Part shown: piece by piece, positions 752 to 61,926 of the stretch
How positions within the stretch are numbered: position 1 is the stretch's first letter
How the letters are laid out: every line of letters begins with the position of its first letter
Assembly (NCBI GenBank): GCA_017459895.1
Contig: JAFUCA010000036.1
Span: 38,357 to 102,356, forward strand
DNA length: 64,000 nucleotides
Reading direction: 5' to 3'
Origin: Bacillota bacterium
Lineage (GTDB): Bacteria > Bacillota > Clostridia > Peptostreptococcales > Anaerovoracaceae
Program-made: the position numbers and the translations under genes
The notes under the pieces: model-generated
Told to the model about the DNA's origin: nothing
Seen by the model: the letters and a program-made list of their open reading frames with translations, nothing else
Database searches by the model: none

Positions 752-1909
752 ATGAAACGAATTTCGATTTTAGGGAGCACCGGATCCATCGGGACCCAGG
801 CGCTGGATATCATAGATCATAACCGGGAGGAGCTGCGGGTCGCGGCTCTTTCCTGCGCGAGGAGGCTGGATCAGCTGCGGGAGCAGATCCGGCGGTTTTC
901 ACCGGAGGCGGTCTGCGTCGCCGCAGAAGATGATGCGAAGGCGCTGCAGCAGGAGTTTCCGGACATCGAGGTGTACTGGGGCATGCAGGGTCTCGTGTCC
1001 ATCGCGTCCATGGAGGGCTGCGATATAGTGCTGAACTCGCTTCTGGGCATGCAGGGCCTGGAGCCGACGCTGGCCGCTGCAAAGGCTGGCAGGGACATTG
1101 CCTTCGCCAACAAGGAGACGCTGGTGGCGGGGGGAGAGCTGGTGATGAAGACCGTCCGGGAAAACGGCGTGGCGCTGCTTCCGGTGGACAGTGAGCACAG
1201 CGCCATCTTCCAGTCCCTGCAGGGAAGCACTGATTGTCCCATCCGGCGGATCCTGCTGACGGCCTCCGGCGGACCCTTCCGCGGGTTCACCAGGGAGCAG
1301 CTGGAGGAGGTCACCCTGGAGCAGGCCCTGAAGCATCCCAACTGGTCCATGGGAGCCAAGATCACCATCGACTCCGCGTCCATGATGAACAAGGGACTGG
1401 AGGTCATCGAAGCCAGATGGCTGTTCGATGTGCCTCTGGAGAAGATCCAGATCGTGGTGCATCCCCAGAGCGTGCTTCACTCCGCGGTGGAGTTCATGGA
1501 CGGTTCGGTCATCGGGCAGATGGGAAATCCCGATATGCGGGTGCCCATCGCCTATGCCTTCAGCTATCCGAGGCGCCTTGCCATGAGCGGCAGCATGCAG
1601 CCGCTGGACCTGTTCGGGTATCCCGGCGGACTGAGCTTTGAGCGGGCGGATGAGGAGGTGTTCCGCACGATCCATCTGGCCTACGAAGCCAGCCGGCGGG
1701 GTGGGACCTATCCGGTGGTGCTCAACGGAGCCAATGAAGCTTTGGTGGCGGCATTCCTTCATCGCAGGATCCGTTTCTGCGAGATCCAGCAGCTGCTGGA
1801 GGCGATCCTGGAAGAGCACCAGCCTTTGCATGAGCCGGATCTGGAGACGATTCTGGCGGCGGATGAACAGGCCCGCCGCGCAGCGGAAGAAATGATTGAG
1901 AAGATATGA
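752..1909 (+). CDS. dxr: 1-deoxy-D-xylulose 5-phosphate reductoisomerase
   Basis: Dxr (IspC) converts DXP to MEP with NADPH, the committed step of the non-mevalonate isoprenoid pathway, in the cytoplasm. The 385-residue protein is full length. It opens with the NADPH-binding motif ILGSTGSIGTQAL, has FANKETLVAGG near residue 120, the metal and substrate region PVDSEHSAIFQ, and ASGGPFRG further on. It starts 2 bp after cdsA with AAGG just upstream and overlaps rseP by 4 bp. ispG, a later enzyme of the same pathway, lies two genes on. Copies of the dispersed repeat at 1079 (read AKAG) and 1819 (read QPLH) lie inside it. Confidence 0.97.
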   Translation: MKRISILGSTGSIGTQALDIIDHNREELRVAALSCARRLDQLREQIRRFSPEAVCVAAEDDAKALQQEFPDIEVYWGMQGLVSIASMEGCDIVLNSLLGMQGLEPTLAAAKAGRDIAFANKETLVAGGELVMKTVRENGVALLPVDSEHSAIFQSLQGSTDCPIRRILLTASGGPFRGFTREQLEEVTLEQALKHPNWSMGAKITIDSASMMNKGLEVIEARWLFDVPLEKIQIVVHPQSVLHSAVEFMDGSVIGQMGNPDMRVPIAYAFSYPRRLAMSGSMQPLDLFGYPGGLSFERADEEVFRTIHLAYEASRRGGTYPVVLNGANEALVAAFLHRRIRFCEIQQLLEAILEEHQPLHEPDLETILAADEQARRAAEEMIEKI

Positions 1910-2916
1910 CGATTATTTACGCGATACTGATATTCTGTGTCCTGATTTTTGTTCATGAATTCGGACACTTCATAACGGCGAAGGCCTGCGGAGTGAAGGT
2001 CAACGAGTTTGCCATCGGCATGGGTCCGGCGTTTTTCAAGAGACGGCGGGGCGAGACGCTGTACGCGCTACGGGTGTTCCCCATCGGCGGATACTGCGCC
2101 ATGGAAGGGGAGGACGAGGACTCTCCGGATCCCCGGGCCTTCAACAACAAGCCGGCCTGGCAGCGGGCCATCGTTCTGGCGGCGGGATCTCTGATGAACC
2201 TGCTGACCTGCGTGGTGCTGCTGATCATCATCGCTTTTTACGCGGGACAGGCTACTACCACCATCGACACGGTGGAGCCGGGCTCCCCTGCGGAGGCCGC
2301 CGGACTGATCCACGGAGATACGATCGAGAAGATCGACGGGCAGCAGATCCGGGAATGGAATGATATCATTCAGACCATCGGCTACAGCAAAGAAAAAACA
2401 GCTCAGCTGACCTTCGACCGCGGCGGCGAGGAGATGACGGCAGGCGTCGTGCTGAAGTACAACGAAGAGCAGAAGCGCAACATGATCGGAATCACGCCCG
2501 CGATGGAGCGGCACCTGCTGGGATCGATCGGCGCCGGGGTAAAAAACACCGGCGACATGGCGGTCATGATGTACGATACCCTGCGGCAGCTCTTTACCGG
2601 CGGTGTCTCCGTGAAGGAGCTTTCCGGGCCGGTAGGCATCGTCTACGCGGTGAACGAGACGGCGAAATCCGGCGTGCTCTACGTGGTCTACCTGGCGGCG
2701 CTGCTAAGCCTGAACCTGGCGATCATCAACCTGCTGCCGCTGCCTGCCCTGGACGGGGGAAGGCTCCTGTTCCTGCTGATCCGCAAGCTCACCGGCAAAC
2801 GGGTGACGGATGAGATGGAGGGACGGATCCACTTCATCGGGATCATGCTGCTGCTGCTTCTGATGGTGTACGTCACCTTCAACGACGTGATCCGGTTCAT
2901 CGTGCCGATCTTCTAG
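1906..2916 (+). CDS. rseP: Site-2 zinc metalloprotease RseP/RasP
   Basis: Intramembrane protease that cuts anti-sigma factors and signal-peptide remnants inside the membrane. The first helix holds HEFGH near residue 14, the zinc-binding and catalytic motif. A PDZ domain follows at about residues 115-180. The C-terminal region has NLLPLPALDGG, whose Asp is the third zinc ligand, and a final hydrophobic helix. At 336 residues it is family length. The start overlaps dxr (ATGA), implying translational coupling, and ispG begins 10 bp downstream. Confidence 0.96.
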   Translation: MTIIYAILIFCVLIFVHEFGHFITAKACGVKVNEFAIGMGPAFFKRRRGETLYALRVFPIGGYCAMEGEDEDSPDPRAFNNKPAWQRAIVLAAGSLMNLLTCVVLLIIIAFYAGQATTTIDTVEPGSPAEAAGLIHGDTIEKIDGQQIREWNDIIQTIGYSKEKTAQLTFDRGGEEMTAGVVLKYNEEQKRNMIGITPAMERHLLGSIGAGVKNTGDMAVMMYDTLRQLFTGGVSVKELSGPVGIVYAVNETAKSGVLYVVYLAALLSLNLAIINLLPLPALDGGRLLFLLIRKLTGKRVTDEMEGRIHFIGIMLLLLLMVYVTFNDVIRFIVPIF

Positions 2917-2926
2917 GAGATTCAAT

Positions 2927-4054
2927 ATGAAACGACAGGTAATATGCGGGGATGTGAAGATCGGGGGAGGCGCTCCCATCAGCATCCAGTCCATGACAAA
3001 TACGAAGACTGCCGATGTGCCCTCGACCATGCGGCAGATTGATGCGCTGACGGAGGCCGGCTGTGAGATCATCCGGCTGGCGGTCCCGGACCGGGACGCG
3101 GCGGAGGCGCTGAAGGAGATCAAGCGCAGATCCCGGATTCCCGTGGTGGCGGACATTCATTTCGATTACCGGCTGGCCCTGGCCTCCATGGAAGCCGGCG
3201 TCGATAAGATCCGGATCAACCCGGGGAACATCGGCGGTGAGGAAAACGTCCGGAAGGTGGTGGAGATGGCAAAGGCCCGGCGCATTCCCATCCGGGTCGG
3301 TGTCAATTCCGGCTCCCTGGAGAAGGATATTGTGGCCAGGGACGGGGGCGTCAGTGCAGAAGGCCTGGCGGAAAGCGCCCTGCGCAACGTTCGCCTTCTG
3401 GAGAAATTCGATTTTGAGGACATCGTGATCTCGCTGAAGTCCTCCAATGTGAAAATGAACGATCAGGCATACCGCATCGTCGACGATCGGTGCGACTATC
3501 CGCTGCACATCGGCGTGACGGAAGCCGGAACCCCGGCCAGGGGACGGACCAAGTCGGCGGCGGGTATCGGCGCGCTGCTGCTTTCCGGCATCGGCGACAC
3601 CCTGCGGGTCTCCCTGACGGCGGATCCGGTGCAGGAGGTGCTGTTTGCCAGAGAGCTGCTGGACGTGCTGGACATCCGCAAATCCGGCATCGAGATCGTT
3701 TCCTGTCCCACCTGCGGCAGAACCGAGGTGGATCTGGAACGGATCATCGATCGGATCGAGCAAAGGCTGGAGCCGCTGAAGAAGACCTTCGAAGCACGGC
3801 GGCAAAGGCCCGGCGTCCTCAGCGGCGGCGCCGGCGGTGCTGCCAGCATGAAGATCGCCGTCATGGGCTGCGTCGTCAACGGTCCGGGGGAAGCCCGGGA
3901 AGCCGATATCGGCGTGGCCTGCGGCAAGGGTAAAGGCGTACTCATCCGCAAGGGAGAGATCCTCCGGCAGGTGACCGAGGAGAACATACCAGAAGAAATT
4001 TGCAGACTGGCAGAGGAATATGCAGAAATCACTTACGGAATCCATACAATTTGA
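2927..4054 (+). CDS. ispG: 4-hydroxy-3-methylbut-2-enyl diphosphate synthase (flavodoxin)
   Basis: IspG (GcpE) reductively opens MEcPP to HMBPP in the MEP pathway using a [4Fe-4S] cluster. The TIM-barrel part opens with the SIQSMTNTKTADV region, and the C-terminal part has the cluster motifs SCPTCGRTEVDL and CVVNGPGEA. The length of 375 residues is slightly above the usual 350-360. The ribosome binding site is AGGAGA. The 3' end overlaps the polC start by 35 bp in another frame. Confidence 0.97.
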   Translation: MKRQVICGDVKIGGGAPISIQSMTNTKTADVPSTMRQIDALTEAGCEIIRLAVPDRDAAEALKEIKRRSRIPVVADIHFDYRLALASMEAGVDKIRINPGNIGGEENVRKVVEMAKARRIPIRVGVNSGSLEKDIVARDGGVSAEGLAESALRNVRLLEKFDFEDIVISLKSSNVKMNDQAYRIVDDRCDYPLHIGVTEAGTPARGRTKSAAGIGALLLSGIGDTLRVSLTADPVQEVLFARELLDVLDIRKSGIEIVSCPTCGRTEVDLERIIDRIEQRLEPLKKTFEARRQRPGVLSGGAGGAASMKIAVMGCVVNGPGEAREADIGVACGKGKGVLIRKGEILRQVTEENIPEEICRLAEEYAEITYGIHTI

Positions 4055-7000
4055 CCAATACAAGGGCTGCCGGCCGGAGGACATCCGGCCGGAAGTGCGG
4101 CAGGCATTCCTGTCCAAAGACCGGCGGGTGCTCCATCTGGACATGGTGCTCAATTTCATCATGTCCGCGGACGAGATCGAGCAGTTCAAGCAGCGTCTGC
4201 TGAAGAAGCTGCCGGGGATCCGGCAGGTGGACCTGACCATCGAGCCGCGCAATGCCCTGAACGAAGCGCAGCTGAAGCAGCAGGAGCAGGAGCGGGCCGC
4301 CAGAGCGGCCGAGGCCGCCGCGCAGCGGGGTGAATACGGAGGCCTGGGAAGTTTCGCCGAAGGAGGTTCATCTGCGGCGGGAGCATCCGGCGCGGCAGGA
4401 AACTCCGGAAAAGGCGCCGGGGGAGCACCGAGGCGCGGCCGCAGGCGCAGGAAGTTCGTTCCCGCGCAGGGAAACCGGATCATGGGTGATCCGGTCAATG
4501 CTCCCGTGCTCCCCATCAGCGAGATCACTTCCGAAAGCGGCACCGTCGCCATCGAAGGCGAGCTGTTCAACAAGGACTGCCGCACCACCAGGAGCGACAG
4601 CAAGCTGGTCAGCCTTTTTGTGACGGATAAGCGCACCAGCCTTTGCGTGAAAGCCTTCGTCGTCAACGAGAAATGGGACGAGATCGACGGGATGCTCTCT
4701 CCGGGCGACGGGGTGAGGATCCAGGGACTGGCCCAGTGGGACCGGTTCGACAACTGTGTCACCATCATGGCGGATACCATCGAGAAGACCGAGGTGAAGG
4801 AACGGACGGACACCTGCGAGCGCAAGCGGGTCGAGCTGCACGCCCACACCAAGATGAGCGCCATGGACGGGCTCAACGACGTCAAGCACATGGTCAAAAC
4901 CGCAGAGAAGTGGGGCCATCCCGCGGTGGCCATCACCGACCACGGCGTGGTGCAGGCCTTTCCGGACGCGTCCCATGCGGCGAAGAACATCAAGATCCTC
5001 TACGGCTGCGAAGGTTATCTGCTGGACGACCGGGAGCTGATCCGGGAAGACGGCAGCATCGACTACAAGGCACGGCCGACCAACCACGTGATCCTGTTCG
5101 CGAGGAATCGGGAGGGGCTGAAGAACCTGTACCGGCTGGTTTCCATTTCCCATCTGGAGTATTTCTATAAGAAGCCGCGGCTTCCCAGATCCGTCATCGA
5201 AAAGTACCGGGAGGGACTGATCATCGGTTCCGCCTGCGTCATGGGGGAGATCTATCAGGCGATCCTGAGGGATGCCCCCGAAGAGGAGCTGGAGTACCTC
5301 GTACGCTTCTATGACTACCTGGAGATCCAGCCTTTGGTCAACAACCACTTCCTGATCGACGGGAAGAAGATCAAGGACGAGGAGGATCTGAAGGAGCACA
5401 ACCGGCGCATCATCGCCCTGGGCGAGAAATACGGCAAGCCCGTGGTCGCCACCTGCGACGCCCACTATTTTGACGCGGAGGAAGCGCTGTACCGGCGGAT
5501 CCTGATGGCCGGGCAGGGCTTTAAGGACGTGGAGGGCGATGAGGGCCTGTATTTTCGGACCACCGACGAGATGCTGGAGGAATTCTCCTACCTGGGAGAG
5601 GAACTGGCCTATCAGGTGGTGGTGGAGAACACCAACCGGATCGCGGACATGATCGAGCCGATGATGCCCGTGCCCGACGGCAAATTCCCGCCGAAGATCG
5701 ACGGGGCCGAGGATGCGCTGCGAGAGGCCTGCGCCGAGCGGGCCGCCGCCATGTACGGGGATCCGCTGCCGGAGGAGATCCGGCAAAGGCTGGACAAAGA
5801 GCTCAATTCCATCATCGATAACGGATACGCGGTCATGTACCGCTCCGCCGAAATGCTGGTCAAAAAGTCCCTGTCGGACGGATACCTGGTGGGATCCCGG
5901 GGGTCCGTCGGATCCTCCTTTGCCGCCACCATGTCCGGCATCACCGAAGTCAATCCGCTGCCGCCCCACTACCTGTGCCCGAAGTGCAAGCACCTGGAGT
6001 GGGGGGATCTGCAGGAGTACGACTGCGGCGTGGACATGCCGGATAAGGTCTGTCCGGAGTGCGGAACGCCGTACCGGAAGGAAGGATTCAATATTCCCTT
6101 TGAGACCTTTCTCGGATTCAACGCCAACAAGGAGCCGGATATCGACCTGAACTTCGCGGGGGAATACCAGGGCACCGCGCAGAAATACGTGGAGGAGATC
6201 TTCGGTGCGGAGAACGTTTTCAAGGCCGGCACCATCGGCACCATCAAGGATAAGACAGCCTTTGGATACGTAGCGAAATACTTCGAAGAGCGGGGGATCA
6301 GCGCCAACCGGTTCGAGCTGGACCGGCTGACCGGCTGCTGCGCCGGCGTGCGAAGGACCTCGGGACAGCACCCCGGCGGCGTCATCATCGTGCCCCGGGG
6401 CCACGAGATCTACGAGTTCTGCCCCGTGCAGCACCCGGCCAACGATGTGAATTCCGACATCATTACGACCCATTTCGATTATCACTCCATCGATCAGAAT
6501 CTGCTGAAGCTGGATATCCTGGGGCACGACGCGCCGTCCATGATCCGCCAGCTGCAGGATATGACCGGGATCGACCCCATGGACGTTCCCCTGAAGGACG
6601 AACGGGTCATGTCGATCTTCATCGGAACCGACGGCCTTGACATTCAGGATCCGGACTACCGGTTCTCCCACGGATCCTTCGGTATCCCGGAATTCGGAAC
6701 CAAGTTTGTCCGCCAGATGCTGGATGACATTCAGCCCACCTCCTTCGAGGAGCTGATCCGGATCTCCGGACTGTCCCACGGAACCGATGTCTGGCTGGGC
6801 AACGCCCAGGACATCGTGGTAAACGGCATCGCCACCATGAAGGAAGCCATCGCCACCCGGGATGACATCATGAACTACCTGCGAAAAAAAGGTCTTCCCA
6901 ACGCCGACGCCTTCACCATCATGGAGAAGGTCCGAAAGGGCAAGGGGCTGACGGAGGAACAGGAACTGCAGATGCGGGAGCACGACGTGCCCGACTGGTA

Positions 7001-7562: not shown

Positions 7563-7598
7563 GTAGTTGCCTCAAACCGTGAAATTGCAAGGTTTTTC

Positions 7599-8254: not shown

Positions 8255-9466
8255 ATGAATGATTTTATGAACGCAATCGATGATCTGGTCAAAGAGAAAG
8301 GGATCACGAAGGAACTCCTGATGGATGCCATCGAGTCCGCACTGGTCGCCGCCTACAAGAAGAACTATGGCACGGCCCAGAACGTCAGAGTCGTGTTCGA
8401 AGGCGACATGGAAGGCATCGAGGTGCTGATGAGAAAGGACGTCGTGGAGGAAGTCGAAGACGAATTCACTCAGATTTCTCTGGAAGAAGCTCTGGAGATC
8501 GACCCGCGTTATCAGGTAGGAGACGTGGTCGAATATCAGGTGACACCGCAGAATTTCGGCCGGATCGCGGCCCAGACCGCCAAGCAGGTCGTGGTACAGA
8601 AGATCCGGGAAGCCGAGCGCGGCATGGTCTTTGACAACTACATCAACCGGCAGGGCGATCTGATCACCGGCGTCGTTCAGCGAATCAGCAACGAGACGAT
8701 CTTCGTCAACATCGGCAACACCGAGGGCATTCTGGTCGCCGGCGAGCGGGCCAGAGGCGAGCGGTTCCGTGTCAACGACCGGATCAAGGCATACATCATG
8801 GACGTGCGCAAGAGCACCAAGGGACCTCAGATCTTCCTCTCCAGGACCCACCCGGGATTTGTGGAGCGGCTGTTTGAGCTGGAGGTTCCCGAGATCGAGG
8901 ACGGCATCGTCGAAATCAAGAGCATTGCCAGAGAGGCGGGCTCCCGGACCAAGATCGCGGTCTACACCGAGGACGAAGATGTGGATCCGGTGGGCGCCTG
9001 CGTCGGCACCGGCGGCAGCAGAGTCCGCAACATCGTGGACGAGCTGTTCGGCGAGAAGATCGACATCACCACATGGGATGACGATCCGAAGATCCTGATC
9101 AAGAACGTGCTCAGCCCGGCCAAGGTAGAGGAAGTCCTGATCGACGAGGAAGAGAAGGCAGCGACGGTCATCGTACCGGATTATCAGCTGTCCCTGGCCA
9201 TCGGCAAGGAAGGACAGAACGTCCGCCTGGCAGCCAGACTTTGCGGATGGAAGATCGACATCAAGAGCCACTCCCAGTACTTCGGAGACGAAGAAGACGA
9301 GTACTACGATGATGACGAGTACTACGACGACTACGAGGACGGCGAGTACATCGAAGAGGCTGAGGAAGCCGAAGCAGCGGAAGAGACTGAGGAATCGGAA
9401 GAAACCGAAGAGGCCGATGCAAAGGCTGGCGAGGCTGAGGAGGTCGAAACAGCCGAAGAGGAATAA
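8255..9466 (+). CDS. nusA: Transcription termination/antitermination factor NusA
   Basis: Binds RNA polymerase and nascent RNA to modulate pausing and termination. The order is NusA N-terminal domain (about 1-125), S1 domain (GVVQRISNETIFVNIG, about 135-200) and two KH domains (GSRVRNIVDELFGEKIDI; LAIGKEGQNVRLAARL). The last 60 residues form a very acidic tail rich in Glu, Asp and Tyr, beyond the usual Firmicutes end. The ribosome binding site is GGAGG. One dispersed repeat (9419) lies in the tail, where it encodes AKAGE. Confidence 0.97.
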   Translation: MNDFMNAIDDLVKEKGITKELLMDAIESALVAAYKKNYGTAQNVRVVFEGDMEGIEVLMRKDVVEEVEDEFTQISLEEALEIDPRYQVGDVVEYQVTPQNFGRIAAQTAKQVVVQKIREAERGMVFDNYINRQGDLITGVVQRISNETIFVNIGNTEGILVAGERARGERFRVNDRIKAYIMDVRKSTKGPQIFLSRTHPGFVERLFELEVPEIEDGIVEIKSIAREAGSRTKIAVYTEDEDVDPVGACVGTGGSRVRNIVDELFGEKIDITTWDDDPKILIKNVLSPAKVEEVLIDEEEKAATVIVPDYQLSLAIGKEGQNVRLAARLCGWKIDIKSHSQYFGDEEDEYYDDDEYYDDYEDGEYIEEAEEAEAAEETEESEETEEADAKAGEAEEVETAEEE

Positions 9467-9468
9467 CT

Positions 9469-13569: not shown

Positions 13570-14622
13570 ATGAGCATATTTGCGAACGCAACATTAAAAG
13601 AACTGGGAAAACTACTGGCAGGCGCAGACAGCGTCCTGCTTTTTTCCCATGTAAACCCGGATCCGGACGCCATCGGATCCGCCATGGCGCTGTGCCTGGC
13701 CCTTCGCCGGCAGGGAGTGCGCTCCTTTGTCGTGCTGGATGAGCCGGTGCCGAGATACCTGCGCTTTCTGGAGGAAGGTCTGGAAGAGGCGGAAGAGACC
13801 GGAGCCGGCCTTTGGGGCTCCCCGCTGACGACGGATCCGGATGTGATCCCGGATCCTGAGATCAGCCTTTGCATCGACTGCTCCGAGGATTACCGGATCG
13901 GGGAACGCAGGACGAGCTTCGCCCGGGGAGAGGTGACGGCGGCCATCGACCATCACCAGGCAAAGGAATGCGACCGGGACTATTACTATATCGATAACGA
14001 GGCGGCGGCGTGCTGTCAGATCGTGTATCAGCTGATGCGGGAGATGGACTGGCCGCTGGACCGGAAGTGCGCGGAGCTGCTTTACACGGGGCTGAACGGG
14101 GATACGGGCTGCTTCATGCACTCCAATACCACGGCTCAGGTTCACCGGATGGCGGCGGATCTGCTGGAATTTGGAGTTGACATAAACAAGGTTAATGTCA
14201 ACTTGTATCAAAGCAAGGACCTGCGGGAGGTACGGCTGGAATCCCGCATTCTGCAGCATCTGGAGCTGTTCGCGGACGGAAAGGCTGTGATCTCTGCGGC
14301 GTCACAGGAGGACTACGATGCCTGCGGCGCAGGGCCGGAGCACGCCGGTCAGGTGATCGATCAGCTGCGGGTGATCGACGGCGTCGAGATCGCCGCATTT
14401 CTGCGGCAGGACGGCGATAAGGTCCGGGGAACCATGCGGTCGAAGACCGCCGGTAATGTGGCACGGATCGCCGGAGAATTCGGCGGCGGAGGTCACATTA
14501 AGGCGGCCGGCTTTACGTCGGAGCTTCCGATGGAGGAACTGTATCCCAGGGTGCAGAAGGCGATCGCAGCGGAGATCCGGCGGATGGACGGTGCGGGCGA
14601 AGCATCGCGAGGCGTGCGATGA
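13570..14622 (+). CDS. nrnA: DHH family oligoribonuclease / 3'-phosphoadenosine phosphatase
   Basis: NrnA degrades short oligoribonucleotides and hydrolyses pAp, acting in RNA turnover. DHH-domain motifs are HVNPDPDAIGSA near residue 25, CIDCS and AIDHHQ; the DHHA1 domain ends in GGGHIKAAGF, which binds substrate. All Asp/His manganese ligands are visible. Its length of 350 residues is slightly above the typical 310-330. It overlaps truB by 4 bp. Confidence 0.93.
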   Translation: MSIFANATLKELGKLLAGADSVLLFSHVNPDPDAIGSAMALCLALRRQGVRSFVVLDEPVPRYLRFLEEGLEEAEETGAGLWGSPLTTDPDVIPDPEISLCIDCSEDYRIGERRTSFARGEVTAAIDHHQAKECDRDYYYIDNEAAACCQIVYQLMREMDWPLDRKCAELLYTGLNGDTGCFMHSNTTAQVHRMAADLLEFGVDINKVNVNLYQSKDLREVRLESRILQHLELFADGKAVISAASQEDYDACGAGPEHAGQVIDQLRVIDGVEIAAFLRQDGDKVRGTMRSKTAGNVARIAGEFGGGGHIKAAGFTSELPMEELYPRVQKAIAAEIRRMDGAGEASRGVR

Positions 14623-15686
14623 AAGACGGAATCCTGGTGCTGAACAAGCCCCGCAGCTGGACTTCCCACGACTGTGTTGCTCTTTGCCGCAGAGTGCTGC
14701 GGCTCAAGGGCGTAAAAAAGATCGGCCACGGAGGAACGCTGGATCCGATGGCGGAAGGCGTGCTCCCGATCTTCATCGGTCAGGCGACCCGGATCATGGA
14801 ATATCTGGATCTGGATTACAAGACCTACACCTGCCGGGTGCAGCTGGGGCTGGTCACCGATACCCAGGATATCTGGGGAACGGTGCTGGAAGAGAAGTCC
14901 TTTGGCGGGATCCGGGAAGAGCAGGTGCGGGAGGCGCTGGCATCGTTTGAAGGAGTCATAGAGCAGATCCCGCCGGTGTATTCTGCGGTGCGCATCGACG
15001 GCAAACGGCTGTACGAGTATGCCCATCAGGGCAGGACGGACGAAGCCGCGCAGCTGGCGAATCTGGCCGCCCGCCGGGTGCACGTGCGGCGGATCACGGT
15101 GCACGAGATCGATATGGAGCAGGGGACACTTTGTTTTACAGCGGAGTGCTCCAAGGGGACCTATATCCGGACCATCTGCGCGGACCTGGGGCAGGCCCTG
15201 GGCTGCGGCGCGGTGATGACCGGCCTGGTGCGAACCGCCATCGGCGGGATCACGCTGGAGGGGGCCGTCAAGGAGGACCCTGCCGCGGGATCCGGCAGGG
15301 CCGTCAGCCCGGAGCAGATCAAAGCCATGGAAGGAGATCCCGCGCTGCTTTCCAGGCTGGAAGGAATGCTGCTTTCGCCCGACCAGCCTTTGCATCGGTT
15401 CGGAGAGATCGTGATGCCGGCGGACCGGGCGAAATACTTCCGGCAGGGAAACAGTATCCGCCTGTATCAGCTGCGAAAGACGGCGCTGCCGCAGATCGAA
15501 GTCAATCCGCTGACCGGAGAGATCCCCCGCAATGCCCGGGGACGGCGCTATGACCGGATCTACCGGGTGTACCAGCAGGAGAACGGACTGTTTCTCGGGA
15601 CCGGCTGCGAGGATCTGCAGGAGGGCGTACTGAAGGCGGACAAGGTGTTTCAGGCTCTGAACGAGCCGAAGAATCAGAAGAAGTAA
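14619..15686 (+). CDS. truB: tRNA pseudouridine(55) synthase TruB
   Basis: Makes pseudouridine 55 in the T-loop of tRNAs. Motif I NKPRSWTSHD is near residue 7, and the catalytic motif GHGGTLDPMAEGVLPI follows, its Asp being the nucleophile. CSKGTYIRTI lies in the middle. At 355 residues it is longer than the usual 300 owing to an extended C-terminal PUA-like part. It overlaps nrnA (ATGA). The repeat at 15383 lies in the 3' third. Confidence 0.95.
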   Translation: MKDGILVLNKPRSWTSHDCVALCRRVLRLKGVKKIGHGGTLDPMAEGVLPIFIGQATRIMEYLDLDYKTYTCRVQLGLVTDTQDIWGTVLEEKSFGGIREEQVREALASFEGVIEQIPPVYSAVRIDGKRLYEYAHQGRTDEAAQLANLAARRVHVRRITVHEIDMEQGTLCFTAECSKGTYIRTICADLGQALGCGAVMTGLVRTAIGGITLEGAVKEDPAAGSGRAVSPEQIKAMEGDPALLSRLEGMLLSPDQPLHRFGEIVMPADRAKYFRQGNSIRLYQLRKTALPQIEVNPLTGEIPRNARGRRYDRIYRVYQQENGLFLGTGCEDLQEGVLKADKVFQALNEPKNQKK

Positions 15687-20669: not shown

Positions 20670-20724
20670 CTTGCCTTCAGGCCATACAAAAGCTGGCCCG
20701 AACATGGCAGGCCAGCCTTTGCAG

Positions 20725-29531: not shown

Positions 29532-29621
29532 CAGCATTGCGCAGGAAAACAGGGAAGACCAGCCTTTGCATGAGATCGAAGGGAAAACACCACGAATCCT
29601 ATACCACGGGACGGGTTTCTA

Positions 29622-31635: not shown

Positions 31636-31707
31636 ATGCAAAGGCTGGATGTGGCTCGCCCCTAGGGCGAGCAGCCGGGTCAACACGGAGTGATCCAGCC
31701 TTTGCAT
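31636..31707. repeat. Perfect inverted pair of the dispersed repeat with nested hairpin
   Basis: Arms ATGCAAAGGCTGGAT (31636-31650) and ATCCAGCCTTTGCAT (31693-31707) are perfect over 15 bp. They enclose a second hairpin, GCTCGCCC and GGGCGAGC (31654-31672) around CTA. It starts 5 bp after the fbp stop. No T tract follows, so it is not a classical intrinsic terminator, although paired uptake sequences serve that role in Neisseria and Haemophilus. Confidence 0.85.
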
Positions 31708-38513: not shown

Positions 38514-38567
38514 ACGTCGGGCCGCTTCGGGGATGCAAAGGCTGGAGCGGCTTCGTGAGGTTTGCTG

Positions 38568-40161: not shown

Positions 40162-40189
40162 TTGACATATTCTGGAAATGGAATATAAT
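40162..40189 (+). promoter_or_regulatory. comEC promoter (leaderless transcript predicted)
   Basis: TTGACA (40162-40167), 16-bp spacer, TATAAT (40184-40189). ATG 40197 follows 7 nt after the -10 box, where transcription should begin, and there is no ribosome binding site. Confidence 0.75.
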
Positions 40190-40196
40190 GGTAAAC

Positions 40197-48723: not shown

Positions 48724-50468
48724 GAGTAGTCGTAGGACAGGGCAGCTGCGGCGTTGCGACCGGAGCGAAGAAGACCGCTGCTGAATTTGAGAAGCAGATC
48801 GCAGAGAAGAATTTGGGAATCGAAGTCGGCGTCACCGGGTGTGTCGGTACCTGCTACCTGGAGCCCATCGTCGACGTTTATGAGGATAACGGCGAGCTGA
48901 CAAGATACGTCAAGGTTCAGCCGGAGAACGTAGCGAAGATCGTTGAAGACCATCTGGTGGGAGGAACTCCCGTGGCAGAGCAGGCCATCAGCGAGGAGGA
49001 CAAGGGATTTACCGGCGGACAGCAGAGAATCGTTCTGAGAAACTGCGGCGTCATCAACCCGGAAAACATCGACGAATACATCGCCGTGGACGGATACAAG
49101 GCCATCGAGAAGGTCTTAAGCTCCATGAAGCCGGAGGAGGTCATCGAGGAGATCAAGGCCTCCGGACTGCGGGGCAGAGGCGGCGCGGGATTCCCGACCT
49201 GGTTCAAGTGGAACGCCGCCAAGGCTTCCCCGGGCAATGAGAAATACCTGGTCTGCAACGCGGACGAGGGTGACCCGGGTGCATTCATGGACCGTTCCGT
49301 TCTGGAGGGCGACCCCCATTCCCTGCTGGAAGGCATGATCATCGGCGGCTACGCCATGGGAGCGGGTGAAGGCATCATCTACTGCCGTGCGGAGTATCCG
49401 CTGGCCATCAAGCGTCTGGAGATCGCCATGGCTCAGGCCAGAGAAAAGGGATTTCTGGGCAAGAACATCTTTGACAGCGGATTCGATTTCGACATCCGCA
49501 TCAAGGCCGGCGCCGGCGCGTTCGTCTGCGGTGAGGAGACGGCGCTGATCGCTTCCCTGGAGGGCGAGCGCGGTATGCCGAGACTCAAGCCGCCGTTCCC
49601 GGCAGCCAAGGGTTACTGGCAGAAGCCGACCGATATCAATAACGTTGAAACACTGGCCAACGTACCGTGGATCATCTACAACGGCGGCGCAGCCTTTGCA
49701 GAATACGGCACGGAGAAATCCCCGGGCACCAAGGTGTTCGCGCTGGCCGGCAAGATCAAGAAGGGCGGCCTGGTGGAGGTGCCGATGGGCATGACCATCC
49801 AGGATGTCATCTTCGGCATCGGCGGAGGCATCAAGAAAGACCGTCAGTTCAAGGCAGTGCAGATGGGCGGACCGTCCGGCGGATGCGTACCTTCCCACCT
49901 GGCAGAGACCCCGGTCACCTATGAGGATATCACCAAGACCGGCGCCATCGTCGGATCCGGCGGTATGATCGTCATGGACGAGGATACCTGCATGGTGGAC
50001 ATGGCCAGATACTTCCTCAACTTCACGAGAGATGAGTCCTGCGGCAAGTGCAACTACTGCCGGATCGGGACCAAGAGAATGCTGGAGATCCTGGAGCGGA
50101 TCACCGAGGGCAAGGGCGAAGACGGCGACATCGAGAAGCTGGAAGAGCTGGCCATCAAGATCAAGGACGGCAGCCTTTGCGGCTTGGGCCAGACGGCGCC
50201 GAACCCGGTTCTGACCACGATCCGTTACTTCCGCAACGAGTACGAGGATCACATCTACAACCACAAGTGCACGGCGAAGTCCTGCAAGGCGCTGATCACC
50301 TACAACATCACCGACGCGTGCAAAGGCTGTACGCTCTGCGCGAGAAACTGCCCGGTGGATGCGATCAGCGGCAAGGTCAAGGAGCTGCACGTCATCGATC
50401 ATGACAAGTGCATCAAGTGCGGCAAGTGCATGGATCACTGCAAGTTCAACGCGATCGTGAAGGAATAA
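48720..50468 (+). CDS. NuoF-like NADH-binding flavoprotein (StnB/HndC type)
   Basis: 582 residues. N-terminal thioredoxin-like [2Fe-2S] domain (about 1-85, CGVATGAKKT and VGVTGCVGTCYLEP), then the NuoF core with GLRGRGGAGFPTWFKW (NADH), CNADEGDPGAFMDR (FMN), GAGAFVCGEETALIASLEG and the [4Fe-4S] motif ESCGKCNYCRIG, then two C-terminal ferredoxin motifs (CKGCTLCARNCPVDAI; CIKCGKCMDHCKFNAI). This is the architecture of NADH-binding subunits in bifurcating hydrogenases and Stn complexes. 10-mer repeat copies at 49690, 50171 and 50321. Confidence 0.92.
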   Translation: MRVVVGQGSCGVATGAKKTAAEFEKQIAEKNLGIEVGVTGCVGTCYLEPIVDVYEDNGELTRYVKVQPENVAKIVEDHLVGGTPVAEQAISEEDKGFTGGQQRIVLRNCGVINPENIDEYIAVDGYKAIEKVLSSMKPEEVIEEIKASGLRGRGGAGFPTWFKWNAAKASPGNEKYLVCNADEGDPGAFMDRSVLEGDPHSLLEGMIIGGYAMGAGEGIIYCRAEYPLAIKRLEIAMAQAREKGFLGKNIFDSGFDFDIRIKAGAGAFVCGEETALIASLEGERGMPRLKPPFPAAKGYWQKPTDINNVETLANVPWIIYNGGAAFAEYGTEKSPGTKVFALAGKIKKGGLVEVPMGMTIQDVIFGIGGGIKKDRQFKAVQMGGPSGGCVPSHLAETPVTYEDITKTGAIVGSGGMIVMDEDTCMVDMARYFLNFTRDESCGKCNYCRIGTKRMLEILERITEGKGEDGDIEKLEELAIKIKDGSLCGLGQTAPNPVLTTIRYFRNEYEDHIYNHKCTAKSCKALITYNITDACKGCTLCARNCPVDAISGKVKELHVIDHDKCIKCGKCMDHCKFNAIVKE

Positions 50469-53400: not shown

Positions 53401-53987
53401 TCGGAAGCCCGCGGGACGGCATCCTGCAGGTCAAGGCGAAGAACAATTCCCAGGGCCTGATCGATCTGGGCATCACAGCCGGTGCCGAGGAGCTGGAAGG
53501 CCTGAAGGCGCTGCTGGTCTTCGGCGAGGAGGCGGACATCGATACGTCGGCTCTCGAGTTCCTGGCGGTCAGCGATACCCACATGACGGGCCTTGCTGCA
53601 AAGGCTGACGTGGTCCTGCCGGGAACGGGCTTTGCTTCCACCGACGGTACCTATACCAACACGGAGCGCCGGCTCCAGCTGGTCCAGGCGGCCATCGATG
53701 AGGACATCGAGTATGTCAACTGGGAGCTGGCTGCGGCCATCGCCGAGGTCTTCGAGGAAGACTTCGGATGGACCTGCACCGACGATATCTCCGATGAGAT
53801 GGATGATCAGGTTGCCGCGTACAAGTACGCTTCCCTGGACGAGGTCCTGGGCGGCGTCATCGTACCGGAGGATGTCACTCTGACCCCGGCGGAAGGAAAT
53901 ACCTTCGCCGAGCCGCTGGAGTGCACCGACAGCCTGATGAAGACCATCGCGGAGCGTCTGCCGGAAGTGAAGAGCATGACGGCATAA
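50487..53987 (+). CDS. Fusion of 2Fe-2S ferredoxin, NfnB/GltD-like FAD-NAD(P)H domain and NuoG-like domain (StnC type)
   Basis: 1166 residues. About 1-75: plant-type [2Fe-2S] (CYDERTRIYGSCGICMCEVE). About 90-170: Cys-rich CRPPCVLACPAGTDCQGYVG and CPHPCEDDCRRG. About 190-520: NfnB/GltD-like flavoprotein with IIGGGPLGLSAAYFLRQMG (FAD), IVGGGNTAMDACRTAVRLGA (NADPH) and FAGGDCGND. About 600-690: two ferredoxin motifs (CILCGLCVRVC, CVSCGQCVSVCPTGAL). Then a molybdopterin-oxidoreductase-like domain with CSYCSVGCSLLL, but no catalytic Cys/Sec seen and no final MGD-binding domain, so NuoG-like rather than a formate dehydrogenase. The three-gene set matches my recollection of StnABC of Sporomusa, a bifurcating transhydrogenase linking NADH, NADPH and ferredoxin. 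Confidence 0.85.
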   Translation: MDKFRLNINGKEVTGVPGQTILEVARENDIFIPTLCYDERTRIYGSCGICMCEVEGNPKLCKACATVIAPGMVVRTNTERVIESRKTNLELLLSNHTGDCRPPCVLACPAGTDCQGYVGLIANGEYEKANELVKDKIPLPASLGRVCPHPCEDDCRRGLIDEPIAIQSLKRFASDVDRAGAKFIPECDPDTGKSVAIIGGGPLGLSAAYFLRQMGHDVTIFESMPKAGGMLRYGIPEYRLPKAELDDEIDTIEQMGVDIITNTKIGVDIPFQSVRDDFDAVLLGIGAWISTGVGCPGEDAEGVIGGIDFLRHVVRNEPIALGDKVAIVGGGNTAMDACRTAVRLGAKEVYNIYRRTKDEMPADMIEIEEAEEEGVIFKNLTNPLEIIKDDNGHIKEVVLQCMELGEPDASGRRRPVPIEGKTETIALDNMILAIGQAVDASIFDCDKTRKGAIAYDKETFMTSMEGVFAGGDCGNDKISIAVEAIADARKASEIIDAYLNGETVRYEKPYFVTRDDITEKTFEDRERQCRPQIPQLSAEQRKDNFTEVIPDGFTPEQAEEEASRCLECGCHDYFECKLIDLAHQYDVEPSRFCGDKNTIDYDDEHPFIVRDPNKCILCGLCVRVCDEVMGIGALGLVHRGFDTVVKPNMEKPLAESGCVSCGQCVSVCPTGALQERTTMVKEVPVDTEVTETTCSYCSVGCSLLLESYGDMLIKANPDKGGSVNAGLACGKGKWGFDCSMLEDKLETPQIKDGDGFRDADYHEALVLIAKKAQSIGTRYGKDAIGVAISDRYTNEEAYAFKKMAEVIGGKVFCLNNRASGLAEVLGVDASPNTIDELLSTNYILAIGYNMVDNPVIELKMKQAAEAGAKVALVNPKGFEQNIKFLADEVYADDLGFVKQIAKCLIDAGKGEGFVGIDALKESLADVTVSDEAAKIAGDYLAAKKAMIVFNQNLVSVDTARLIADIAAISGHIGSPRDGILQVKAKNNSQGLIDLGITAGAEELEGLKALLVFGEEADIDTSALEFLAVSDTHMTGLAAKADVVLPGTGFASTDGTYTNTERRLQLVQAAIDEDIEYVNWELAAAIAEVFEEDFGWTCTDDISDEMDDQVAAYKYASLDEVLGGVIVPEDVTLTPAEGNTFAEPLECTDSLMKTIAERLPEVKSMTA

Positions 53988-56556: not shown

Positions 56557-58548
56557 ATGAAAAAGTATTTACCAGCCTTTGCATTCATACTGCTGCTTGC
56601 GGCCTTCCTGCCGGCCGCTGTTTTTGGCGCGCAGACGGAGGAACCGCAGGGACACAAGACACTTTCGGTCGATGCGCAGCCGATCAGCGAAGAGCAGCTT
56701 GAGCTGAACGAGGAGGAGGCGCAGGGGCTTCCGCAAAGGCTGGACCCCCGAAGCGAAGCATGGTTTGCGGACAATATCCATGTCAGAGATCAGGCGGATA
56801 CGGAGCTCTGCTGGGCCTTCGCCGCAGCGAGCGCAGCCCAGATCTCCTATGCGAAAGAAACCTACGACCCGGAACATCCCCAGCCGGTACCGGAGCTGTC
56901 GCCGGCTCATCTGGGGTACTTCTTTTATCATCGGGTGGACGATCCGCTGGGGAACACTCCGAAGGATCGAAACCTGCTGATGAAATACGACTGGAAGAAG
57001 GAAGGGGGAGCCAGCGCCTACACCTATCAGCATCTGGCCACCTGGAGCGGAGCAGGGCCCGAAGAGAACACGCCCTTCGTAGCCGCAGAGGGCAAGTACA
57101 CCGGCCCGGGAAGCTTTGCCGCTGGTCTCGCCTATCAAAACGCGCTGACCCTGCAGAGCAGCGAATTCTATCTGGACCTTCCTGATACGGAGGCGGGCCG
57201 GGATACCCTGAAGAACATGATCGATCGCTACGGGGCGGTCGTCGGCTCTCTCAGCTGGTCGGAGGATTTTCAGAGGACGATCGAGGCAGAACCGGAGGAG
57301 ACGGATCCGGGGGAGGAAATCGATACGGGGGAGGAGACTGCGCCGGCGGCAGAGACAGAGCTCACGTTTTTCAATACCAATCCGAAGGCGGTGATCAACC
57401 ACGAGATCACCATCATCGGCTGGGACGACAGCTACCCGAAAGAAAACTTCGTTTCAACTCCCAATGGAGACGGTGCCTGGCTGATCCTGGACAGCCATGG
57501 GGCGGAGGAGCCGGGAGGGGGCTACGTCTGGGTATCCTACGAGAGTGTGGATATCATGGAGCAGGGCCTTTTGGGCATGGATATGCAGGAAGCGGATCCG
57601 AAGCTTTCCCTGTATCAGTACGACGGAACGGCCGTCTACGATTCTTACGATCTGGATGCCGGGGATACGGCGGCGAATGTATTCACTGCGCCGAAGAACC
57701 ATCAGATCCAGCTGGATCAGGTGGGATTTACAGCAATGAACGCAGAAGAGACCTGCTGCACCATCACGATCTACGCGGGGCTCACCGACCGGAATAAACC
57801 GGACAGAGGATTGGAACAGCTGCGGCAGGAGGTGATCATCGATTCACCCGGATACAAGACCTTTGAACTGACCAGGCCGGTGACCATTGATGCCGGTGAG
57901 ACCTTTGCTGTCTGCGTAACAGCCCGGGAAGCTGCCGGGTTTGGAACGGAAATGGATTATCTGGGCACGAACGACATCTTCCAGGCAGAGGCAGGGATTC
58001 AGGCAGGCCAGAGCTTCTACTATTACAAGAAAAATCATACGTGGTATGACGCAGGTATTGATACGGACGGTTCGGGAGGGTACTGCTTCCGGATCAAAGC
58101 GGTTTCCGAAGCCGCAAGCTGTGTCCACAGGTATGTTTCCGAGCGCAGGGTCGACCCGAAAAAAGGCGTCAGCGGTTACAGCATCGGACAGTGCAGCCTT
58201 TGCGGACACCGGGCCAGGATCGAGATTCCGGCGCTGAAGCCGGTACCGAAGGGCACCTCCGTCACGAAACTCGTGAAGGCTCGAAAAGCTGTAACCGTCA
58301 AATGGAAGAAGTCTTCCGAGAAGATCGCCGGCAAGAACATCGGCGGCTATCAGATCCGATACAGCCTGAAGAAGACCATGAAGAACCCGAAGAAAATCAC
58401 GGTCAAGGGCTACAAGAAGACCTCCGTGAAGATCACCGGGCTCAAGGCGAAAAAGAAATATTACGTCCAGATCCGTACCTATAAGAAGACCGGCGGCAAG
58501 AATTATTATTCTGCCTGGTCCGCCGTCAAATCCGTAAAAACCAAGTAG
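56557..58548 (+). CDS. Secreted C1-family (papain-like) cysteine protease with C-terminal fibronectin-like domain
   Basis: 663 residues. Signal peptide at 1-24 (FAFILLLAAFLPAAVFGA). The papain domain has RDQADTELCWAF with Cys85 and INHEITIIGWDD with His282. The usual third residue lies in a KNSWG motif; here the sequence is LILDSHG, so Asn is replaced by Asp312 and Trp by His. A middle domain (about 390-540) of beta type follows, then a Lys-rich C-terminal fibronectin-like module (YYVQIRTYKKTGGKNYYSAW) shared with the subtilase. Surface or secreted; may be active with reduced efficiency or act as a binding protein. Repeats at 56572, 56733 and 58194. Confidence 0.85.
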   Translation: MKKYLPAFAFILLLAAFLPAAVFGAQTEEPQGHKTLSVDAQPISEEQLELNEEEAQGLPQRLDPRSEAWFADNIHVRDQADTELCWAFAAASAAQISYAKETYDPEHPQPVPELSPAHLGYFFYHRVDDPLGNTPKDRNLLMKYDWKKEGGASAYTYQHLATWSGAGPEENTPFVAAEGKYTGPGSFAAGLAYQNALTLQSSEFYLDLPDTEAGRDTLKNMIDRYGAVVGSLSWSEDFQRTIEAEPEETDPGEEIDTGEETAPAAETELTFFNTNPKAVINHEITIIGWDDSYPKENFVSTPNGDGAWLILDSHGAEEPGGGYVWVSYESVDIMEQGLLGMDMQEADPKLSLYQYDGTAVYDSYDLDAGDTAANVFTAPKNHQIQLDQVGFTAMNAEETCCTITIYAGLTDRNKPDRGLEQLRQEVIIDSPGYKTFELTRPVTIDAGETFAVCVTAREAAGFGTEMDYLGTNDIFQAEAGIQAGQSFYYYKKNHTWYDAGIDTDGSGGYCFRIKAVSEAASCVHRYVSERRVDPKKGVSGYSIGQCSLCGHRARIEIPALKPVPKGTSVTKLVKARKAVTVKWKKSSEKIAGKNIGGYQIRYSLKKTMKNPKKITVKGYKKTSVKITGLKAKKKYYVQIRTYKKTGGKNYYSAWSAVKSVKTK

Positions 58549-58581: not shown

Positions 58582-58636
58582 GTGAGCAACGAGAAAGTAA
58601 CCATCATTTTTAGTGATATCAAGAAAGGAACCACCC

Positions 58637-59413: not shown

Positions 59414-59440
59414 GCCGCGCTGATAACGAAAGGAGCAACC

Positions 59441-59995
59441 ATGGAGAAATACGCATTTATTGAAAACGTTCCGGGTCTGAGCTCGGACCGCTACACGGAT
59501 TCCTTCAATGACGGCGAGTGGGAAAGTTTCGTCATCGGTCTGGACGGCATGGACAAGGTCGTTGACTGCGCGAAGCAGATGATTGCCGATGGCGCCAGCC
59601 TGATCAATCTGTGCGGTGACTTCGGTGAGGAGCACGTGGCCGAGATCCTGAAGGACGCGCCGGAGGGCACCGAGGTCCACTACGCAGCCTACCTGCCGAC
59701 CGAGCTGGCAAAACTGGAGGCCCTGCCTCAGTACGTCGAGTATGGGCAGATCATTTTCGGCGGGGTGGAGGAGCCGGTTCATCTGGAGCTGGCGGATCCG
59801 GCAATGAACACCCATACGGTCTTTGTCAAGAACCTCGACCAGGCCATCGAGGCGGCCCGGGAATTTGCAAAGGCTGGCGTTGACGGGATCGAGCTGTGCA
59901 GCAGCTTTGACCTGGACATGACCCGGCAGATCATCGCCGCCGTGGAAGCCATCGACCCGAAGATCCCGGTGGGAAGCAACGGGATTATAGTTTAG
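59441..59995 (+). CDS. Conserved hypothetical protein (possibly DUF6506-like)
   Basis: 184 residues, soluble and acidic. Starts MEKYAFIENVPGLSSDRYTD; then alternating strands and helices (GASLINLCGDFGEEHVAEIL; HTVFVKNLDQAIEAAREFAKAGVDGIELCSSFD), which looks like a small TIM-barrel-like or ferredoxin-like alpha/beta fold. I believe similar short proteins are catalogued as DUF6506, but am not sure. 27 bp after crt with AAAGGAG, so co-transcribed. Repeat at 59867 encodes AKAG. Cluster 5 follows the stop within about 10 bp. Confidence 0.6.
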   Translation: MEKYAFIENVPGLSSDRYTDSFNDGEWESFVIGLDGMDKVVDCAKQMIADGASLINLCGDFGEEHVAEILKDAPEGTEVHYAAYLPTELAKLEALPQYVEYGQIIFGGVEEPVHLELADPAMNTHTVFVKNLDQAIEAAREFAKAGVDGIELCSSFDLDMTRQIIAAVEAIDPKIPVGSNGIIV

Positions 59996-60005
59996 GTACG
60001 AATAA

Positions 60006-60233: not shown

Positions 60234-60911
60234 ATGAATATCATTTTCGACATGGACGGAGTCATCTTCGACACGGAGCGATTCTGGCTGAACTGCTGCA
60301 TCCCGGCGGCGAAGGAGCTGGGAATGAGAAACTTCGCCGAGGTCTATCCGCGCTGCATCGGTCTGACGGAGCCGGAGACCTGGCGGGTCATGATGGACGC
60401 CTACGGCGACCGGCCGCTCCTGGAAGAAATGTATGCAAAGGCTGGTGCGATCTTTCATAAGCGCTATGAGGAGGAGGGCCTTCCCGTCAAGCCGGGTGCC
60501 CGGGAGATTCTGGTCTGGCTGAAGGAACAGCAGATTCCCACGGCGCTGGCATCGTCCACCAAGGAGGAAATCGTCACAAAGGAGCTGACCGACGCCGGCC
60601 TGCTCCAATATTTTGATACCATTACCTGCGGCGATCACGTAGAGCGAAGCAAGCCCGCGCCGGATATTTTCATCGAAGCGGCGCGGCGGCTGGGCGAAGT
60701 GCGAAGGATCGGCGGCACCGATATCGCCCCGCAGGACTGCTTCGTCATCGAGGATTCTTTTAACGGCATCCGGGCGGCGGCAGCGGCGGGAACCAGGCCG
60801 CTGATGGTGCCGGATATGCTGGAGCCTACCGATGAGATCCGCGCCATGGCCCACCTGGTGTTTCATGATCTCTATGAGGTGAAGGAATACCTGCAGGATA
60901 TCGAATCGTAA
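60234..60911 (+). CDS. HAD-superfamily phosphatase (beta-phosphoglucomutase-like)
   Basis: 225 residues from ATG 60234 (AGGA upstream; an earlier ATG at 60207 lies in cluster 5). HAD motifs: IFDMDGVIFDTE (nucleophile and acid Asp), ALASSTKEEI (Thr/Ser), KPAPDIF (Lys) and CFVIEDSFNGI (Asp). The helical cap makes it a subfamily IA phosphatase or phosphomutase; substrate unknown. Repeat at 60435. Confidence 0.85.
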   Translation: MNIIFDMDGVIFDTERFWLNCCIPAAKELGMRNFAEVYPRCIGLTEPETWRVMMDAYGDRPLLEEMYAKAGAIFHKRYEEEGLPVKPGAREILVWLKEQQIPTALASSTKEEIVTKELTDAGLLQYFDTITCGDHVERSKPAPDIFIEAARRLGEVRRIGGTDIAPQDCFVIEDSFNGIRAAAAAGTRPLMVPDMLEPTDEIRAMAHLVFHDLYEVKEYLQDIES

Positions 60912-60945
60912 TTTGAAGCAACAGTCATACCAATAGGAGTAACCC

Positions 60946-61926
60946 ATGAGCATCCGACCACATACATCCACCATCACAACCAAAGTCACCCACCGCCGGG
61001 TGGTCATCGTCGGCGCGGGCTACGTCGGCGCATCCATCGCCTATGCCCTGACCATCACCAACCTGGCCCGGGAGATCATCCTGATCGACATCGACGAGCA
61101 GAAGGCCATCGGCGAATCCCTGGACATCCAGCACGGCATCCCGTACATGGGCGTCTCGAAGGTCCGGGCCGGCGGCTATGAGGACTGTGCGGAGAGCGAT
61201 CTGATCATCGTCACCGCCGGAAGAAACCGGCGGGTGGGAGAGACACGGCTGGAGATGGCGGCGGACAACATCGGAATCATCCGGGACGTGGCAGGCAAGA
61301 TCAAGCCCCATTACAACCACGGGCCGATCATCATCGTCTCCAACCCGGTGGATATCCTGACCTGGGAGTTCGACCGGATCATGGGCCTTCCCAACGGGCA
61401 CGTCTTCGGCACAGGGTGCATTCTGGATACCTCGCGGCTCATCCGGAGCATCGCCCGCTATACGCACCTGAAGATCGAGGCAATCAAGTGCAACGTGGTA
61501 GGGGAGCACGGGGATTCCCAGTTCCCGGTGTGGAGCCGGCTTGCCATCGCAGGACAGCCCATGGAGGAGTACTGCGAGAACGTGGGCCTGGCCTGGGGCA
61601 AACGGGAGCAGGACATGCTCTATAACTACGTCCGGGACATGGGCGCCCACATCATCGCCGCCAAGGGCAAGACCCACTACGGCATCGCCACCTGCGTATG
61701 TTCCATCGCCGACGCCGTCCTGAACCAGCGGCTCACCATCGCCCCGGTGACCAGCCCTTTGCAGGGGGAATACGGCATCAAGGGGGTGTCCCTGTCCGTT
61801 CCGTCGATCATCGGCGTCAACGGCGTCGAGCAAAGGCTGGAGGAGCGCTGGTCCGATGAGGAGTACGAGAAGCTAAAAAAAAGCGCTGCCGCAGTGGAGG
61901 CAGCGATCCGGGAGATACCGGTATAG
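60946..61926 (+). CDS. L-lactate/malate dehydrogenase family enzyme
   Basis: 326 residues. Rossmann motif VVIVGAGYVGASIAYAL, NAD-binding Asp in LIDIDEQKA, catalytic Arg/Asp in LDTSRLIR and the proton-relay His in VGEHGDSQFPVWS. Overall most like L-lactate dehydrogenase (GETRL loop). The specificity position (Gln102 in LDH, ANQKPGETR) reads RNRRVGETR, an Arg, which is the malate dehydrogenase residue. So oxaloacetate or a larger 2-oxo acid is possible. Ribosome binding site AATAGGAG. A palindromic terminator follows. Repeat at 61830. Confidence 0.8.
   Translation: MSIRPHTSTITTKVTHRRVVIVGAGYVGASIAYALTITNLAREIILIDIDEQKAIGESLDIQHGIPYMGVSKVRAGGYEDCAESDLIIVTAGRNRRVGETRLEMAADNIGIIRDVAGKIKPHYNHGPIIIVSNPVDILTWEFDRIMGLPNGHVFGTGCILDTSRLIRSIARYTHLKIEAIKCNVVGEHGDSQFPVWSRLAIAGQPMEEYCENVGLAWGKREQDMLYNYVRDMGAHIIAAKGKTHYGIATCVCSIADAVLNQRLTIAPVTSPLQGEYGIKGVSLSVPSIIGVNGVEQRLEERWSDEEYEKLKKSAAAVEAAIREIPV

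Follow-up and report, generated by a model that had tools for sequence, protein, structure and literature searches.

Sequence-specific DNA uptake was described for two families, the Pasteurellaceae and the Neisseriaceae, in a 2016 review (PMC5031613). The DNA uptake sequences (DUS) of the Neisseriaceae come in several dialects, which have a short invariant core in common and whose distribution matches the core-genome tree (PMC3630211, PMC5031613). The uptake signal sequences (USS) of the Pasteurellaceae have a 9-nucleotide (nt) core and occur in two types (PMC12616744), with ComN/PpdA as their predicted receptor. Inverted pairs are a common companion of uptake sequences and do not define them, since a single motif suffices (PMC12616744). 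Among the Bacillota, Veillonella parvula is competent and carries a pilus-like competence locus; its genomic DNA transformed better than a PCR product, and the authors therefore sought over-represented tags (PMC5397411). They are reported to have found no sequence of 10 bp or more that reached 100 copies (data not shown in that paper). Our literature search, which had subscription papers and preprints outside its scope, yielded among the matches listed no study describing uptake sequences from the Clostridia or the Bacillota. Here we analyzed a stretch of 64,000 nt (i.e., the window) from a Bacillota bacterium of the clostridial family Anaerovoracaceae (GCA_017459895.1; contig JAFUCA010000036.1, positions 38,357 to 102,356), throughout which the 10-nt motif GCAAAGGCTG is scattered.

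Written with its preferred neighbors as (T)GCAAAGGCTG(G), the motif is a putative DNA uptake sequence of this Clostridia species (probability, roughly 0.8). We directly observed an extreme, strand-neutral enrichment across the genome, dialects that follow the tree, conservation of sites among same-dialect relatives only, and the presence of uptake genes. From these, we infer DNA uptake, the competence of the cells, and a receptor among the small pilin-like proteins of a PilC/PilT operon. The behavior of the motif matches that of uptake sequences, and a convergent DNA-uptake-sequence system in the Bacillota appears to be the best reading. An earlier note on the window had proposed that the organism takes up its own DNA selectively. 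As a function predicted from sequence, this proposal is supported by the genome-wide enrichment and by the negative results of the tests for strand skew and for longer conserved flanks, together with the dialects, the site conservation, and the uptake genes.

Enrichment and placement of the motif

Exact counting gave 35 copies of GCAAAGGCTG in the window (19 on the plus strand and 16 on the minus strand), 25 of which extend to GCAAAGGCTGG, while 19 read TGCAAAGGCTGG. The numbers for the two shorter forms are identical to those in the earlier note, which had placed them far above chance; dinucleotide shuffling of the window gives expectations of 0.09 for GCAAAGGCTG and 0.00 for TGCAAAGGCTGG. 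The whole genome (G000; 2,495,951 bases in 55 contigs, 93% complete, 5% contamination) holds 864 copies (442 + 422) versus 4 + 6 for the reversed-pattern control, counts that are slightly inflated because a 9.1-kb contig (L145, contig C14) duplicates part of another (L142, contig C34) at 99.99% identity. At one copy per 1.8 kb, the window lies above the genome-wide density of one per 2.9 kb. In a 400-kb sample of this genome, GCAAAGGCTG was the top 10-mer (167 copies versus 3.4 expected under an order-4 Markov model).

This sample and the window together (464 kb) contain 202 copies, one per 2.3 kb on average, as well as 336 genes called by a simple open reading frame and codon score; some minus-strand calls without a family match may be shadows (e.g., window positions 18674 to 20425 and 58619 to 60040). 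A total of 163 copies lie inside called genes, 96 of them along the gene direction and 67 opposite to it (P = 0.028). The remaining 39 are not wholly within a called gene, yet non-genic DNA makes up 13.5% of the 464 kb (intergenic excess, P = 0.023). Genic copies occupy all six phases and encode many peptides, which agrees with the earlier description of copies in several frames, with different peptides, and in intergenic DNA. Synonymous-codon shuffling of the 336 genes yielded means of 3.2 + 0.9 copies (i.e., about 4; 40 shuffles; maxima, 8 and 4), compared with the 163 observed.

When the 35 window copies were aligned, T was preferred before the motif (25/35) and G after it (25/35), and outside these single neighboring bases the flanks were close to random. 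The 12-mer has a sharp one-off spectrum in the 464 kb, with 101 exact copies and a total of about 12 one-off copies at positions 3 to 6 and 8 to 11. The tolerated changes are G to A at position 7 (16 copies), G to C at position 2 (20 copies), and those at positions 1 and 12.

A perfect inverted pair after a gene had been noted in the window and was recovered at 31637 to 31706, where 15-nt arms directly follow an FBPase_2 gene. This pair adds little support, and inverted pairs are not a regular feature of gene ends here: only 9 pairs of neighboring copies less than 120 bp apart occur in the 464 kb, 4 of them inverted and 1 (that of the window) intergenic. The absence of copies from infB, bcd-etf, and an AAA gene had also been taken as support; it carries little weight, since only about 8 kb is covered, compared with the mean spacing of 2.3 kb. 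The AAA_21/AbiEii-like ATPase gene (61984 to 63360, plus strand) has a low G+C content (0.45 at third codon positions) and lacks a motif copy, and it was perhaps acquired.

Dialects and site turnover among relatives

Relatives were found via NusA and are mostly gut and rumen metagenome bins of Bacillota; one of them, L013, carries the lineage Anaerovoracaceae. Counting in related genomes, as the earlier note had advised, revealed dialects that share the core GCAAARGC and follow the ComEC tree; the TG ending occurs in five genomes and the AR ending in many others, with some genomes mixed. Across the 149 genomes in which it was counted, GCAAAGGCTG is present in 332 to 864 copies in the TG-dialect genomes (G000, G001, G010, G011, and G045), 5 to 89 in the 44 other members of the genus, 1 to 46 outside the genus but within the family (41 genomes), and 1 to 49 in the order (59 genomes). 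The AR form (TGCAAAGGCAR) first surfaced in de novo k-mer scans and was afterwards counted in 91 genomes. It is most frequent elsewhere in the genus (G017, 360; G038, 333; G016, 302; G008, 261), while G000 has 8 copies, with 6 for the reversed control. The k-mer scans gave further endings, namely GCAAAGGCAACG in G003 and, in both G013 and G018, a relaxed form of GCAAARGC; ATGCAAAGGGCA is perhaps another dialect ending in G022.

The bases that follow the core GCAAAGGC differ accordingly among genomes: TG (202) and AG (8) in the 464 kb of G000; AG (45), AA (40), AT (13), and TG (6) in eight pooled AR-ending genomes (298 kb); and TT (20), AT (14), CA (10), and TG (9) in G013 and G018. The density of this core is 95 per Mb in seven motif-free genomes versus 517 per Mb in G000. 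In a genome of another genus of the family (G066), a mild excess was seen (GCAAAGGCTG, 46 versus 10 for the control; GCAAAGGCAR, 81 versus 20), which may represent a weak or an earlier version of the tag. Within 100 kb each, AAAACCCCAC and its neighbors are repeated 10 times in the stretches of G013 (L061, L122 to L125), and GGCTAGGGTA is repeated 6 times in those of G018 (L064, L126 to L129).

ComEC was found in 40 of the 49 genomes of the genus (G009, G010, G019, G032, G033, G036, G039, G042, and G044 are not in the tree), and these 40 proteins were placed in a quick, midpoint-rooted, single-gene maximum-likelihood tree. One branch (support, 99) separates 29 motif genomes, with 33 or more copies per Mb of the better of the two forms, from 11 motif-free genomes with at most 24 (ten of them at about 9 or less). 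The TG-dialect genomes in the tree (G000, G001, G011, and G045) constitute one clade (support, 85) among the AR-form genomes.

The compared genomes share roughly 70 to 85% DNA identity. In the four same-dialect relatives, 18 of 42 aligned motif sites of G000 (20 distinct sites) are identical, whereas the identity observed for other 10-mers predicts 7.0 (P = 6e-5, with comparisons that are not independent of one another). The nearest relative, G011, keeps 10 of 13 sites, and the others keep 2 of 8, 4 of 12, and 2 of 9. No excess of kept sites was found in the other stretches fetched from the genus (8/93 versus 7.4 expected), where GCAAAGGCA is read in 6 of the 93 comparisons, nor at the other NusA loci (L003 to L049; 1/94 versus 5.9 expected, with only 7 sites of G000 touched). 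These alignments suggest that copies persist above background for as long as a dialect is in use, with gain and loss otherwise, as would be the case for uptake-driven tags.

Table 1. Copies of GCAAAGGCTG located by exact count, and comEC, in the window
Feature	Position	Strand	Remarks
Motif copy	1079..1088	+	In DXP reductoisomerase gene; identical in G011, G001; G045 has GCAAAGGCAG (other dialect)
Motif copy	1820..1829	-	Identical in G010, G045; one base off in G001, G011
Motif copy	3760..3769	+	
Motif copy	4637..4646	-	Identical in all four same-dialect relatives compared
Motif copy	5783..5792	+	Identical in G011
Motif copy	9419..9428	+	
Motif copy	13863..13872	-	Identical in G011
Motif copy	15384..15393	-	Identical in G011
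Motif copy	18223..18232	+	
Motif copy	20713..20722	-	Between called genes; identical in G011
Motif copy	22378..22387	+	
Motif copy	29150..29159	-	
Motif copy	29325..29334	+	
Motif copy	29560..29569	-	Between called genes
Motif copy	31638..31647	+	Left arm of intergenic inverted pair
Motif copy	31696..31705	-	Right arm of intergenic inverted pair
Motif copy	38345..38354	-	Identical in G011
Motif copy	38535..38544	+	Between called genes
Motif copy	39747..39756	+	Identical in G011
Motif copy	41654..41663	-	Inside comEC; aligned G001 site is GCAAAGGCAG (other dialect)
Motif copy	41828..41837	+	Inside comEC
Motif copy	44022..44031	+	
Motif copy	45343..45352	-	
Motif copy	45441..45450	-	
Motif copy	48000..48009	+	
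Motif copy	49690..49699	-	
Motif copy	50171..50180	-	
Motif copy	50320..50329	+	
Motif copy	53598..53607	+	
Motif copy	56573..56582	-	
Motif copy	56733..56742	+	
Motif copy	58194..58203	-	
Motif copy	59867..59876	+	
Motif copy	60435..60444	+	
Motif copy	61830..61839	+	
comEC	40188..42737	+	Inner-membrane DNA channel of transformation, 849 amino acids; Pfam PF03772, E 1.7e-46; Competence, DUF4131, Lactamase_B domains; tree marker

Uptake genes and competing explanations

The comEC gene already reported from the window was confirmed (Table 1), and the search for other com genes in the same genome identified DprA as well as ComEA, the ectodomain of which is assigned to L143, positions 9377 to 10216. 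A prepilin peptidase and a divergent pilus operon are also present. The operon (L142, positions 5062 to 9891; contig C34) encodes a transglutaminase-like protein, a GspF (T2SSF) platform, four small single-helix proteins (7138 to 8816), and a PilT-family ATPase. Its gene order is the same in the loci of 16 relatives, and part of it lies on a 3-kb contig of G010. The ATPase scores above the PilT-family cutoff (TIGR01420; 411 bits, cutoff 319) and below that of ComGA (NF041000; 121 bits, cutoff 300), and the platform is below the ComGB cutoff (124 of 240). The N_methyl model (PF07963), which is short and can miss divergent signals, had no matches in G000, and the operon seemingly encodes a pilus without a recognized prepilin signal. 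One of the four small proteins is predicted by modeling to resemble a minor pseudopilin of type II secretion systems (T2SS); the nearest solved folds to the model are the minor pseudopilins EpsI/EpsJ and XcpV/XcpW, with middling Z scores. Four relatives (G003, G009, G035, and G041) carry a full-length T2SSE ATPase (E value, 7.5e-125 or better) and N_methyl pilins, unlike G000, and probably possess a second system, either a type IV pilus of the classical kind or a secretion set.

In the mechanism that we propose, a surface pilin or other receptor, for which the PilC/PilT operon offers candidates among its small pilin-like proteins, would favor the tag when it binds free DNA in the course of natural transformation. 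Through such biased uptake and subsequent chromosomal recombination, copies would spread and be maintained wherever the protein code tolerates them. The dialects of the relatives, with the same GCAAARGC core and another 3' end, presumably reflect a receptor that drifts with its tag. The broader proposal, which we hold with less confidence although we still favor it, is that this is a third, independently evolved uptake-sequence system and the first in the Bacillota. It would comprise several dialects, spread across about thirty genomes from gut and rumen that belong to a single genus, and would be read by a non-canonical competence pilus that is driven by PilT and has minor pilins that diverged with the tag.

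Several observations weigh against an uptake sequence. There is only a loose association between the presence of the pilus ATPase and the density of the motif (Fisher P = 0.09 to 0.22 across six cutoff choices, the ATPase class being assigned from a profile range that also takes in PilT of other pili); the ATPase occurs without a known motif in G009, G019, G024, G031, G041, and G044, and the motif occurs without the ATPase in G045, G025, G047, and G029. ComEC, ComEA, and DprA are retained in all 11 motif-free genomes of the tree. The dialects exclude each other strongly in G000 but not everywhere, with 332 TG and 89 AR forms in G045, 332 TG and 51 AR forms in G001, and 50 to 62 TG forms in the AR genomes G047, G004, G014, and G008. 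Tags under a balance of drive and mutation are expected to show more one-off core copies than the 12 or so seen beside 101 exact ones. Terminator pairs of tags are common in Neisseria and Pasteurellaceae, and frequent inverted terminator pairs were not found in the 464 kb. The dependence among the site comparisons also counts here, as do the sampled genomes themselves, which are mostly metagenome bins for the relatives and 55 contigs for G000.

The sharpness of the motif, the scarcity of decayed copies, the lack of a significant link to the pilus ATPase, and the occurrence of ComEC, ComEA, and DprA in motif-free genomes would also suit a site that is bound or modified in a strand-neutral manner by a cytoplasmic protein (e.g., a nucleoid organizer, a methyltransferase, or a self-marking system), with its frequency under selection and its specificity drifting between species. 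No search was aimed at such a protein; we consider this explanation unlikely, because the motif is non-palindromic and lies throughout coding DNA in all phases, and because its sites are not kept above background outside the dialect. Moreover, the strand-neutral tags of such length and density that are known to us are uptake sequences. A HIP1-like palindrome was rejected as a candidate; HIP1 is a self-complementary motif, and GCAAAGGCTG is not self-complementary.

High frequency throughout the genome is also what an oriented signal for recombination or for a segregation translocase would show (i.e., Chi, FtsK orienting polar sequences [KOPS], or SpoIIIE recognition sequences [SRS]). Skew is absent, as the copies divide 104/98 by the majority gene strand of four stretches (P = 0.73), a proxy for replication direction adopted because the genome is in 55 contigs, and 442/422 across the whole genome; such a signal is therefore very improbable, in line with the earlier argument against Chi and KOPS. 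Small mobile elements could yield 10-nt repeats, but the near-random flanks of the 35 window copies argue against a dispersed mobile repeat. By-products of a common peptide or of base composition are opposed by the six phases and many peptides and by null expectations of about 0.1 (shuffled window) and 4 (codon-shuffled 464 kb), and we give these origins the least credence of all. Thus, strand balance, the six phases, the codon-shuffle excess, and the unconserved flanks point away from both Chi or KOPS and mobile repeats.

If the uptake-sequence reading is true, self-recognition by DNA tags arose anew in a further phylum, where it probably relies on a different pilus, and recombination would be frequent within mostly uncultured species of gut Clostridia. 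Species barriers would then be readable from the dialect, and adding the tag to DNA suggests a way to make gut Clostridia transformable.

Comparison with known uptake systems

The Neisseriaceae DUS, which are read by the minor pilin ComP, resemble the present motif in being non-palindromic, 10 to 12 nt long, and repeated hundreds to thousands of times both inside genes and between them, as well as in forming dialects with an invariant core (PMC3630211, PMC5031613). They differ in sequence and phylum, inverted tag pairs are rare here, and the receptor here is a candidate only; ComP was not sought by sequence, and the modeled minor-pilin-like protein is nearest to T2SS minor pseudopilins. The motif has the same layout as the Pasteurellaceae USS, which likewise have a conserved inner core that occurs in two types (PMC12616744), and in both cases the orientations are unequal inside genes (i.e., 96/67 here; PMC2346458). 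It differs from the USS in sequence, in phylum, and in having no A/T-rich extension beside the 35 window copies.

Like the Com pilus of the Firmicutes (ComG operon), the predicted pilus combines an ATPase with a ComGB/GspF-like platform and small proteins that resemble pilins, with ComEA, ComEC, and DprA encoded elsewhere. Unlike the ComG operon, it has a PilT-family ATPase, falls below the cutoffs of the ComGA and ComGB models, and comes from a genome with no N_methyl match. The screen of V. parvula is reported to have found no such tag, whereas the genome analyzed here has 864 copies of GCAAAGGCTG. Overall, the system differs from DUS and USS in sequence, in phylum, probably in its pilus, and in how seldom inverted pairs occur, and what is new is a set of dialects with a common core within one Clostridia genus.

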